64,000 nt of DNA from Escarpia spicata (taxonomy: Eukaryota; Annelida; Polychaeta; Sabellida; Siboglinidae): assembly GCA_963995525.1 (NCBI GenBank), contig OZ023210.1:2725512-2789511 (forward strand), written 5' to 3'. Of this stretch, positions 23,401 to 29,400 are shown piece after piece. A model generated the notes under the pieces. That model ran no database searches and was not told where the DNA came from. It was given only the letters and a program-made list of their open reading frames with translations. The translations under genes and the position numbers were made by a program. Each line of letters begins with the position of its first letter. The first letter of the stretch is position 1.

Positions 23401-26400
23401 TGGCAAATACTGTATACATGTATATGCATCTGAGTACACACTTGAACAATATTGTTAGCTTTGGATATCTCACTTTGAACAATCAATATGTGTATAGCAA
23501 CAACTTTGACTTAGGTAAAATAAAATAAAAAACTAATAATGTTTTGTACCTCAGTATCAGCGTATTTTTGACGGTAACACAAAATCTGGGCCTGTAACTT
23601 GCACAGGCGGGCCACTAACTTTTCAAATCTACTGGCCCCCGGGCCAGTGGATTCAAAACTTTAATGTCAAGGCCTGACAAGGAGTTGTGTGTTACTCCAG
23701 TCTGTTACTTGGAGTTGTGTGTTACTCCAGTCTGTTACTTGGAGTTGTGTGTTACTCCAGTCTGTTACTTGGAGTTGTGTGTTACTCCAGTCTGCGGCCT
23801 TTACTACTCACCTTTACATCTCCCAACATAGCCACCAGGTAGATGGGATATGTCTGCTGCTTTTAGTGGATCATCCAAAATACATTAATGATATCCAACT
23901 ACACATATATGTACCAGGTGCTAGATAGTCAGTGAGTTGTACACCTGTACATAAAAAAATACCTATGTATGACTTGGTGGGCCATCAGTCTGAGTTGTAC
24001 ACCTGTACCTATGTATGGCTGAGTGGGCCATCAGTCTGAGTTGTACACCTGTACCTATGTATGACTGAGTGGGCCATCAGTCTGAGTTGTACACTTGTAC
24101 CTGTATATGACTTGGTGGGCCATCAGTCCGAGTTGTACACCTGTACCTATGTATGGCTGAGTGGGCCATCAGTCTGAGTTGTACACTTGTACCTGTATAT
24201 GACTTGGTGGGCCATCAGTCTGAGTTGTACACCTGTACCTATGTATGACTGATTGGGCTATCAGCCAGCGTTTTGAACCAGATGCTTCCTTGTCATGATG
24301 AAGACCTTAAGTGTATTACTGGGTAATTAAGTCGTCATGCAATGTATCAAGCTGACCGGTCTGTTGACACCTTCAGGTGGCTGTTCTGGACATTGACATC
24401 TGTGGACCTTCAATACCAAGGATCATGGGCTTGGAAGGAGAACAGGTCGGTAGAAGATTGATGACCTAACTCACTGTCATAGTATTACTTATAGATCATT
24501 TTAGATGTGTAAACGTTTTAAGTGCGAAACCATAGGCAAATCCAGGGGGCCTGGGTGGCATGTGCCCCCGTAGACCTTTTTGAATGGGCCCTCGTGTGGA
24601 CATGGAAAAGAAGGGTTGATATGTAAAAGACCATTTTGGAGCTGATACGTGGAACAGCAGTGCTGATATGTAGAACATTTTATCAGGACTGACATATATA
24701 TGCACTGAATCATACCCGTTAGGTGTTGTCTTTGACTCACTGCAACTGTTTGTTGGGTGCAGGTTCACCAGAGTGGTTCTGGCTGGTCTCCTGTGGTAAG
24801 TACATTTCTCGTCATCGCACAGACATAATATATAATTTAATTTATAGCATGAATCACATGATAAAAACAAATACAATACAGCATTTCCCTTGTTAAAGTG
24901 AAATAAAATTTTATATTTCTTTGAAGCTTTGTACACGTAAACTTAATACTCTTATCAAGTAATGTGCCAAATATGAAGCCTGTTCATTGTGAACTCATGT
25001 CACTAAGCCCTCTCAAACGTGGTCATTTGCAAAGCAACCAGCCCTTCACATGTTGCTGATGTCACCACAGGCAATGCTGCTGAGCGCATCCTATCCTTTA
25101 GCACGGCAAGCAGCGGTGCAGTTTGTTGTTTCAGACTATACATGAAATTGCAATAGTAAAATTTAGTATCGTTTTTATATCACAGTAAAGAATAATGATG
25201 AACGCAGGAATTGTGTTAACTTTTTGAGTTATTGTCATTTGAACATCGCGAATGCTCAAACTTGCATTATATCCACTAAGCATTCACGATGTTCAAACGG
25301 TAATAACTCAAAAACTAAAAATAAATCATGGGTACAGTCAGCAGCATAATTGTAGATACGATTATTATTATTACTGTGATATCAACAAATATTAAATCCC
25401 ATTGCAAGTTTTAGTATTCGCAATGTTCAAATGGCAATAACTAAAAAAGTTGACAACATTTCTGCGTGCATCCAGCGACACATTTATTGGTAAGATTATT
25501 ATCTTTACGGTGATATAAAATAATATTAAATTCCGCAATTGCAATTTTATGTACGGCTTGAAACACCAACCCGCATAGATGCGTGCCATGCTAAATCCTG
25601 GCGGTGCTATCTGCGGTGACGTCCCCTTGACCGCTAGGTGTCGCAACAAACAGTGCAGAAAATGTGCAGAAAAGTGCGACCCAAAGGGCCCTTAAACAGG
25701 GTGACAGAGGGGGTTAAAATATTAGTTGAATATCAGAACACTATTTTTATTTTAGAGTATATTTCATTCAGATTAGGAATAAAAAAAGGTTCATTTCGCT
25801 GAGTCTTTAACCTGTAGCTCGCTCATGTTAAATGTACTTGTTACTGGTACTCTATTGGATTTACCATAATAGTGCATACTGTGCAGTTCATGTCATCAAT
25901 GTTAAAATATTGTAGAATTATTTTATTATTGATCCACAAGCACGTTTTAATCAGAATCAGTTTCCATTTAAGTTTCTTGTGTTTTTGTTGTTGATGTTTT
26001 AAGCCTTGTGGAAGAATGCCAATTTGTCTTCCATTTGCTGTACATATACTAGTTACATGTACAACGTCACGAACTGATAATGTGTGGACTGTGCTGCCAC
26101 CTGTTATGGTATGTGATAGACAACCTGGGAGTGATGTCTGTCTGTCTGTCTGCCTGCCTGCCTGCCTGCCTGCCTGCCTGCCTGCCTGCCTGCCTGCCTG
26201 CCTGCCTGCCTGCCTGCCTGCCTGCCTGCCTGCCTGCCTGCCTGTCTGCCTGTCTGTCTGTCACAGACAACCTGGGAGTGATGTATGTCTGTCTGTCTGT
26301 CACAGACAACCTGGGAGTGATGTCTGTCTGTTGTATGTCACAGACAACCTGGAGGGTGGTGTCTGTCTGTCTGTATGTCTGTCTGTCTGTCTGTCTGTCT

Positions 26401-29400
26401 GTCTGTCTGTCTGTCTGTCTGTCTGTCTGTCTGTCTGTCTGTCTGTCTGTCTGTCTGTCTGTCTGTCTGTCTGTCTGTCTGTCTGTCTGTCTGTCTGTCT
26501 GTCTGTCTGTCTGTCTGTCTGTCTGTCTGTCTGTCTGTCTGTCTGTCTGTTGTATGTCACAGACAACCTGGGAGTGATGTCTGTCTGTCTGTTGTATGTC
26601 ACAGACAACCTGGGGGGTGGTATCTGTCTGTCTGTCTGTCTGTCTGTTGTAGTATGTCACAGACAACCTGGGAGTGATGTCTGTCTGTCTGTTGTATGTC
26701 ACAGACAACCTGGGGGGTGGTATCTGTCTGTCTGTCTGTTGTAGTATGTCACAGACAACCTGGGAGTGATGTCTGTCTGTCTGTTGTATGTCACAGACAA
26801 CCTGGGGGGTGGTATCTGTCTGTCTGTCTGTTGTAGTATGTCACAGACAACCTGGGAGTGATGTCTGTCTGTCTGTAGTATGTCGCAGACAACCTGGGGA
26901 TGATGTCTGTCTGTCTGTCTGTCTGTTGTAGTATGTCACAGACAACCTGGGGGTGATGTCTGTCTGTCTGTTGTAGTATGGCGCAGACAACCTGGGGGTG
27001 ATGTCTGTCTGTCTGTTGTAGTATGTCGCAGACAACCTGGGGGTGATGTCTGTCTGTCTGTTGTAGTATGTCGCAGACAACCTGGGGGTGATGTCTGTCT
27101 GTCTGTTGTAGTATGTCACAGACAACCAGGGGGTGATGTCTGTCTGTCTGGTGTAGTATGTCACAGACAACCTGGGGGTGATGTCTGTCTGTCTGTTGTA
27201 GTATGTCACAGACAACCTGGGGGTGATGTCTGTCTGTCTGGTGTAGTATGTCGCAGACAACCTGGGGGTGATGTCTGTCTGTCTGTTGTAGTATGTCACA
27301 GACAACCTGGGGGTGATGTCTGTCTGTCTGTTGTAGTATGTCGCAGACAACCTGGGGGTGATGTCTGTCTGTCTGTTGTAGTATGTCACAGACAACCTGG
27401 TGGTGATGTCTGTCTGTCTGTTGTAGTATGTCACAGACAACCTGGGGGTGATGTCTGTCTGTCTGTTGTAGTATGTCGCAGACAACCTGGGGGTGATGTC
27501 TGTCTGTCTGTTGTAGTATGTCGCAGACAACCTGGGGGTGATGTCTGTCTGTCTGTTGTAGTATGTCGCAGACAACCTGGGGGTGATGTCTGTCTGTCTG
27601 TTGTAGTATGTCGCAGACAACCTGGGGGTGATGTCTGTCTGTCTGTTGTATGTCGCAGACAACCTGGGGGTGATGTCTGTCTGTCTGTTGTAGTATGTCA
27701 CAGACAACCTGGGGGTGATGTCTGTCTGTCTGTTGTAGTATGTCGCAGACAACCTGGGGGTGATGTCTGTCTGTCTGTTGTAGTATGTCACAGACAACCT
27801 GGGGGTGATGTCTGTCTGTCTGTTGTAGTATGTCGCAGACAACCTGGGGATGATGTCTGTCTGTCTGGTGTAGTATGTCACAGACAACCTGGGGGTGATG
27901 TCTGTCTGTCTGTTGTAGTATGTCGCAGACAACCAGGGGGTGATGTCTGTCTGTCTGTTGTAGTATGTCACAGACAACCTGGGGGTGATGTCTGTCTGTC
28001 TGGTGTAGTATGTCACAGACAACCTGGGGGTGATGTCTGTCTGTCTGTTGTAGTATGTCACAGACAACCTGGGGGTGATGTCTGTCTGTCTGGTGTAGTA
28101 TGTCGCAGACAACCTGGGGGTGATGTCTGTCTGTCTGTTGTAGTATGTCACAGACAACCTGGGGGTGATGTCTGTCTGTCTGTTGTAGTATGTCGCAGAC
28201 AACCTGGGGGTGATGTCTGTCTGTCTGTTGTAGTATGTCGCAGACAACCTGGGGGTGATGTCTGTCTGTCTGTTGTAGTATGTCGCAGACAACCTGGGGG
28301 TGATGTCTGTCTGTCTGTTGTAGTATGTCACAGACAACCTGGGGGTGATGTCTGTCTGTCTGTTGTAGTATGTCGCAGACAACCTGGGGATGATGTCTGT
28401 CTGTCTGGTGTAGTATGTCACAGACAACCTGGGGGTGATGTCTGTCTGTCTGTTGTAGTATGTCGCAGACAACCTGGGGGTGATGTCTGTCTGTCTGTTG
28501 TAGTATGTAGCAGACATCCTGGGGATGATGTCTGTCTGTCTGGTGTAGTATGTCACAGACAACCTGGGGGTGATGTCTGTCTGTCTGTTGTAGTATGTCG
28601 CAGACAACCTGGGGATGATGTCTGTCTGTCTGTTGTAGTATGTCACAGACAACCTGGGGGTGATGTCTGTCTGTCTGTTGTAGTATGTCACAGACAACCT
28701 GGGGATAATGTCTGTCTGTGGTAGTATGTCACAGACAACCTGGGGGTGATGTCTGTCTGTTGTAGTATGTCACAGACAACCTGGGGGTGATGTATGTCTG
28801 TCTGTTGTAGTATGTCACAGACAACCTGGGGATGATGTCTGTCTGTTGTAGTATGTCACAGACAACCTGGGGGTGATGTCTGTCTGTCTGTTGTAGTATG
28901 TCACAGACAACCTGGGGATGATGTCTGTCTGTTGTAGTATGTCACAGACAACCTGGGAGTGATGTCTGTCTGTCTGTAGTATGTCGCAGACAACCTGGGG
29001 ATGATGTCTGTCTGTCTGTTGTAGTATGTCACAGACAACCTGGGGGTGATGTCTGTTGGTTTTCTCCTCGCCAGTCCTGATGATGCAGTCATCTGGAGAG
29101 GGCCAAAGAAAAATGGTATATTGCTGGTTGGTGCTTAGTGTCTGTTAGAGCACTGTTGCGATTTTGGACTATTATACTCAGCAATATTATTATTTGTATT
29201 GTCAATAAAATGACATAATAATTTTTTTAGGAAGGCGAGAGACAAGAATAGCTAAATTTGAGTCTGACTTGTTTTGTTATCAGGGGCACAGTGGGTACCG
29301 TAATGGCCGTATGTATTGGGACACTTACAAATAGCTGTCCCAAAACATATGGTGCACAAAAATAAATCTCAGATTCACTGTCCCAAAACTTAGGGACACG

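Follow-up and report, generated by a model that had tools for sequence, protein, structure and literature searches.

A minisatellite across the NUBP1 exon 6 boundary of the annelid Escarpia spicata resembles amphioxus mirages

In amphioxus, minisatellite-like tandem repeats lying across exon–intron boundaries, the acceptor side included, have been described as mirages (PMC3087553, PMC3902484). The passages of these papers on individual genes name Adh3, the globins BflGb6 and BflGb9, and PGBD5, with TnC as a cited case; the BflGb6 mirage is acceptor-sided, joining the 3' end of the intron to the 5' part of exon 2, and its haplotypes have six and three units of 150-160 bp, and Adh3 units measure 10-72 bp (PMC3087553, PMC3902484). 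According to the same passages, the Adh3 and globin mirages do not interfere with regular splicing, as judged from reverse transcription-polymerase chain reaction data (PMC3087553, PMC3902484), and mirages are proposed to seed new introns in globins (PMC3087553). Internal tandem repeats at exon–intron boundaries of human segmental duplications, as described in passages of a further paper, can yield alternative splicing and novel introns (PMC2812944). Here we analyse a window of 64,000 nt from the siboglinid annelid Escarpia spicata (assembly GCA_963995525.1, contig OZ023210.1, positions 2,725,512 to 2,789,511), in which the gene NUBP1 carries, directly ahead of its exon 6, a tandem array of copies of its own splice acceptor and exon start. 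In structure this array is a mirage: its unit crosses the exon–intron boundary of the host gene beside the intact exon. A first, sequence-only reading of the window had held that no such system was described; to judge from the passages cited above, the amphioxus mirages are of the same kind (PMC3087553, PMC3902484), and what is new is the host group, the scale (59 copies) and the apparent recurrence.

NUBP1 lies on the plus strand of the window, where ten exons join into a single open frame of 318 amino acids (they are numbered 2-11, exon 1 not having been sought), and its product matches Pfam PF10609 (E=2.5e-101). Tandem Repeats Finder called a 45-bp array at 26633-29056 (54.2 copies, score 4112), and decomposition with the anchor GACA[A/T]CC[T/A]GG gave 60 unit starts, the first at 26110 and the last at 29025, that is, 59 decoys followed by the real exon 6. 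The upstream part of the decoy units matches the end of intron 5, and column-wise comparison limits their likeness to exon 6 to its first 32 nt, after which they diverge; the final unit runs on into an intact exon 6 of the open NUBP1 frame, and the array thus adjoins the authentic exon. The unit decomposition and the 32-nt exon match bear out the sequence-only reading that the array is built from NUBP1's own acceptor and exon start, and the intact continuation confirms that its last unit is the true exon 6; that reading had the structure right, and its limits needed correction, with the first unit starting at 26110 and the shared exon part measuring 32 nt.

Most decoy units are exactly 45 bp long (41/59), 16 fall between 38 and 58 bp, and a CTGC/CTGT microsatellite enlarges two others to 147 and 219 bp. 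Apart from a few substitutions, the units vary in how many CTGT steps they hold; they fall into 24 distinct types among the 59 copies, and diverge more at the edges of the array than in its core, where TAG precedes 38 of the 39 units. No significant higher-order repeat was seen in the array: the longest common run comprises five unit types (units 18-22, recurring 19 units on), a length that 417 of 2000 core permutations reach. When the 1.06-Gb assembly was searched with the array and its exon, all 27 matches fell at this locus on a 65.5-Mb contig, in a search that skips very common words, scores only the best candidates and covers one assembly and one allele. Within this search, no second genomic copy of the array was seen.

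A TAG acceptor is present in 50 of the 59 decoys, the other nine having TTG, CTG or TGG. In-silico splicing from the exon 5 donor at 24795 to each of the 50 met a premature stop every time; 40 of them read 14 codons, mostly starting YV[T/A], before the stop supplied by the TAG of the following unit, and the remaining ten stop after 13-38 codons. The earlier claim that every decoy gives a premature stop thus holds for the 50 units with a TAG, the other nine not being acceptors. Since 36 of these 50 decoys reproduce the true acceptor exactly between -20 and +3 (one of the 50 does so between -44 and +6), the true site is distinguished by what follows it, namely the remainder of exon 6 with its donor, rather than by its core signal. 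Conservation of the NUBP1 protein implies that the acceptor at 29025 is used. Most regular units of the core also carry a donor-like site, GGG/GTGATG (here and below the slash marks the splice site), 21 nt past the acceptor; were both used, the result would be a 21-nt in-frame micro-exon encoding YV[T/A]DNLG.

Comparable arrays occur elsewhere in the same genome. In a survey of kinase genes, 134 Pkinase matches were found and 77 tested (52 + 22 + 3), and boundary-spanning tandem arrays were present at five of the 77 (L018, L051, L065, L070 and L073), with periods of about 42-181 bp, which speaks against the idea of a device specific to NUBP1. Judging from sequence motifs, we take these five genes to resemble STK36, CDK1, PASK, PAK and AMPK. 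Four of the arrays are on the acceptor side. In L073, with 88-bp units, at least six decoys of the form CAG/GTACGAGTGATCGCG stand ahead of the real exon CAG/GTACAAGTGATCGCG, and the six decoys whose acceptor lies in the sequence retrieved stop after 19 codons; in L070, with 45-bp units, two decoys TTTCAG/AGCTA each stop after seven codons. Repeat calling in L051 gave units of about 53 bp, in which all three decoys have TAA where the acceptor TAG belongs. L018 is the weakest of the five examples, with degenerate units of 42/50 bp, found by self-BLAST, whose best copies match 14 of the 17 first exon bases. The donor-side case, L065, has three 181-bp copies of GCTGACTTTG/GTGAGA onward and also carries a 103-bp array ending at its acceptor. 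The two tests applied to the first 52 matches differ, repeat calling flagging L051 and not L018 and self-BLAST L018 and not L051, and many of the top 30 matches resemble long single-frame genes, which makes the rate per exon boundary uncertain. The count of five leaves aside small, low-copy 9-18-bp arrays touching or inside matches in L014, L026 (two), L028 and L046, a 12-bp array in L051, a 13-bp array at the second match of L070, and arrays near matches, without overlapping them, in L055, L066, L067 and L071.

Among the first 74 kinase matches, arrays with periods of 10 or longer occupy 9.1% of the 236,973 bases in the flanks and 0.94% of coding-match bases, a tenfold depletion inside the matches, with overlapping repeat calls across the whole of the L065 match inflating its share. 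Coverage is 6.8% in the 50 nt adjoining a match, 11.1% from 50 to 200 nt away and 9.6% from 200 to 600 nt away; no enrichment of arrays beside the coding matches of this set was seen. Minisatellites are therefore common outside coding sequence and sometimes cross exon edges, and these edges are not preferred, insofar as domain-match edges represent exon edges. In the window itself, about 8.9% of the sequence lies in tandem arrays with a period of at least 10, several of them in NUBP1 introns. When the ten NUBP1 exons with 40 nt on either side were compared with the plus strand of the window (E<=0.05), no copies of the boundaries of exons 2-5 and 7-11 were found; the array holds a single 21-nt stretch matching exon 3, and none of the remaining eight has a match beyond itself. 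A 60-bp array at 32312-32936 ends 24 nt before exon 9 and holds no exon sequence.

We consider it very probable that the array is a minisatellite born by slippage from a 9-bp match between intron and exon, and tolerated since exon definition favours the acceptor nearest the donor. The motif TGTCTGTTG occurs at the end of intron 5 and again inside exon 6 (Table 1), at a distance of 37 bp. The intervening piece may have been duplicated when the two copies slipped or paired unequally: because the motif is common to intron end and exon, one slippage would copy the TAG together with the exon start. Later slippage, the CTGT part included, would have expanded and homogenised the array, the last copy alone being joined to the remainder of exon 6. 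Where flanking introns are long, exon definition prefers the splice sites closest across the exon, as passages of a paper on splice-site choice set out (PMC9225289). Exon 6 has a 4229-nt intron ahead of it and a 976-nt intron behind it, so it would be expected to be spliced by exon definition, which would favour the acceptor separated from the donor at 29115 by the shortest stretch of exon. This is the last one; the decoys would stay mostly silent, and transcripts spliced at other units would carry an early stop. It is thus plausible that the last acceptor wins, and the array most likely has little effect on NUBP1. The sequence-only reading had offered neutral slippage as its alternative, and this alternative fits best.

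Several points weigh against this explanation. Intron definition prefers the upstream 3' site, according to the same passages (PMC9225289), and would favour the upstream decoys. On a simple matrix built on approximate base frequencies, the exon 6 donor ATG/gtatat scores 0.27, the weakest of nine NUBP1 donors, which weakens the argument from exon definition, and donor-like sites inside the array score 0.15 (GGG/GTGATG, 37 sites), 0.47 (GTG/GTGATG, one) and 1.55 (GAT/GTATGT, two). The matrix is blunt for acceptors: intron 5 has 185 AGs, and 62 of these, including 42 TAGs of the array, score at least as high as the true one. The edge-density comparison used the edges of domain matches and not annotated exon edges, the TGTCTGTTG match was noticed after the fact, and it is a prediction that the last acceptor is preferred and that the array is neutral.

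The sequence-only reading had suggested, as one of two possibilities, a splicing dial, in which decoys compete with the true acceptor, nonsense-mediated decay (NMD) destroys the decoy transcripts and array length tunes NUBP1. The TAG decoys, their frequent identity to the true site and their unfailing early stops are what a dial would use, and the weak exon 6 donor makes competition conceivable. However, splicing to a wrong site far inside an intron will usually run into a stop codon, and for this reason the decoy stops are no evidence of design, and comparable arrays sit in unrelated kinase genes, including the L051 decoys with TAA at the acceptor position. Nor is there a clear sign of coding constraint on the exon-derived 32 nt of the decoys, where 55 of the 59 units (leaving out four with 10-11 mismatches) show four distinct synonymous and nine non-synonymous changes, against a synonymous share of 25% when every possible single change in 33 nt is counted. 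RNA folding was unremarkable in the two stretches tested, six units and the surroundings of the exon 6 acceptor (z of -0.35 and -0.67), and the units have no significant higher-order arrangement. With arrays not denser beside coding matches and with amphioxus mirages described, in the passages cited, as leaving normal mRNA undisturbed (PMC3087553, PMC3902484), a dial is not supported, and we regard it as unlikely. A functional role is kept as a minority reading because the exon 6 donor is weak and the donor scores inside the array are comparable or higher. Slightly less probable still is the wider proposal of a length-variable splicing sink, whereby, given the weak donor and the decay of decoy transcripts, array length, varying from one individual or cell to another, sets NUBP1 output and the other arrays are fast-evolving tuners across the genome.

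Equally improbable as the dial, in our judgement, is a mildly harmful load, in which decoys waste some transcripts without any regulation and the allele persists through drift or recent expansion. It can draw on the same TAG decoys, stops and shared core signal, and acceptors identical to the true one are perhaps hard to ignore entirely; against this, one allele is observed. That assembly inflated or collapsed the copy number is the least probable explanation, since, although tandem arrays are error-prone, a globin mirage in a draft genome appears aberrantly assembled according to the passage on it (PMC3087553) and the exact decoy number of 59 is uncertain, the array holds 24 unit types without significant periodic order, matches lie at one locus only on its long contig, and further examples exist elsewhere in the genome. 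The features on which slippage followed by tolerance is based are collected in Table 1.

Table 1. Coordinates (window positions) of the NUBP1 array, its parts and the neighbouring exons.
Feature	Position	Strand	Basis
NUBP1 exon 5 (12-residue segment), donor GTG/gtaagt	24763..24795	+	coding-sequence reconstruction
NUBP1 intron 5, 4229 nt	24796..29024	+	coding-sequence reconstruction
Boundary-spanning minisatellite, 59 decoy units joining the intron 3' end to nt 1-32 of exon 6	26110..29024	+	repeat calling, decomposition
Degenerate upstream edge, units 1-6, with no AG ahead of any unit	26110..26652	+	repeat calling, decomposition
CTGC tract in upstream edge	26138-26260	+	
CTGT tract in upstream edge	26360-26558	+	
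Homogeneous core, units 13-51, 45 bp each bar one of 42 bp	26932..28683	+	decomposition
Exon-proximal edge, units 52-59, including 41-, 42- and 45-bp units	28684..29024	+	decomposition
TGTCTGTTG at end of intron 5, 9-bp match to exon 6, proposed duplication seed	29013..29021	+	sequence reading; role putative
True exon 6 acceptor TAG	29022..29024	+	coding-sequence reconstruction, splice-site scoring
NUBP1 exon 6, 91 nt, first 32 nt the repeated part	29025..29115	+	coding-sequence reconstruction, column-wise comparison
TGTCTGTTG inside exon 6, within MSVG codons, partner of 29013-29021	29050..29058	+	sequence reading
NUBP1 exon 7	30092..30246	+	coding-sequence reconstruction

Among the animal proteins listed in the best 120 matches, NUBP1 identity is highest in Ptychodera (80%), followed by Lingula (79%) and Branchiostoma (75-76%). 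A protein tree of 33 rows groups the window sequence with Lingula (support 95/90), a placement that disagrees with the siboglinid annelid host, probably because the resolution of the tree is too low. The one COX1 match in the assembly, translated with genetic code 5, points to a siboglinid: its identity is 94% to one record, 88% to a Siboglinidae cluster and at most 83% to the other matches listed. Elsewhere in the window, a 30-bp minisatellite unit is common to 18213-18793 and 23681-23794, which flank about 4.9 kb holding a reverse-transcriptase frame (19394-21976, minus strand); the inner ends of this segment resemble inverted repeats (CAGGCCT...ACTGGCCC), and a mobile element bearing such ends seems to have been inserted into the array. 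An open endonuclease/reverse-transcriptase frame of 929 amino acids at 3277-6063 (minus strand) is 99% identical to a protein of a 4.3-kb contig and shares, across 43% of its length, 85% identity with a Ridgeia piscesae protein. The frame at 46233-46595 (minus strand), whose Oxidored-like N-terminal domain matches PF09791 at E=4.5e-08, is probably a separate gene.

These arrays move boundary-spanning minisatellites from a lancelet oddity to an apparently recurrent feature of an annelid genome; we found no report of such arrays in annelids among the Creative Commons-licensed PMC papers listed in our searches, and the Ridgeia genome paper, in its passages on tandem repeats, has them only in the methods and a reference. 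Gene predictors can be misled by arrays of this kind, which may also give rise to new introns, as has been suggested for globins (PMC3087553, in the passages cited). The NUBP1 locus is also a natural experiment on how the spliceosome chooses one acceptor with dozens upstream that share its core signal. If the last acceptor alone is indeed used, the locus would lend strong natural support to exon definition; if others are used, the array would influence an essential gene in a way that its length could tune.

Poison or decoy exons coupled to NMD are exons whose use gives a premature stop. The NUBP1 decoys resemble them in that use of any of the 50 with a TAG would give such a stop, and may differ in lacking a convincing donor: the candidates inside the array score low, yet the real exon 6 donor is low as well. 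In the competition tests of Reed and Maniatis, as described in passages of PMC9225289, several 3' splice sites vie for one 5' splice site; those are laboratory assays, whereas the NUBP1 array is a natural set of 50 candidate acceptors. The human repeats are likewise variable minisatellites at exon–intron boundaries; they differ in belonging to primate-specific paralogues, with units of about 30 bp and about four copies on average, and the passages on them do not describe copies of a constitutive acceptor ahead of an intact exon (PMC2812944). Closest are the amphioxus mirages, which, in the passages cited, share with the NUBP1 array boundary-spanning units, many carrying AG/GT splice signals, and edges that escape homogenisation (PMC3087553, PMC3902484), which in the globins are more divergent than the core (PMC3087553). 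Compared with them, the NUBP1 array has 59 copies where BflGb6 has three and six, a unit of about 45 bp where the globin mirages have 150-160 bp, an annelid host, and decoy acceptors of which 36 in 50 equal the true one over 23 nt.

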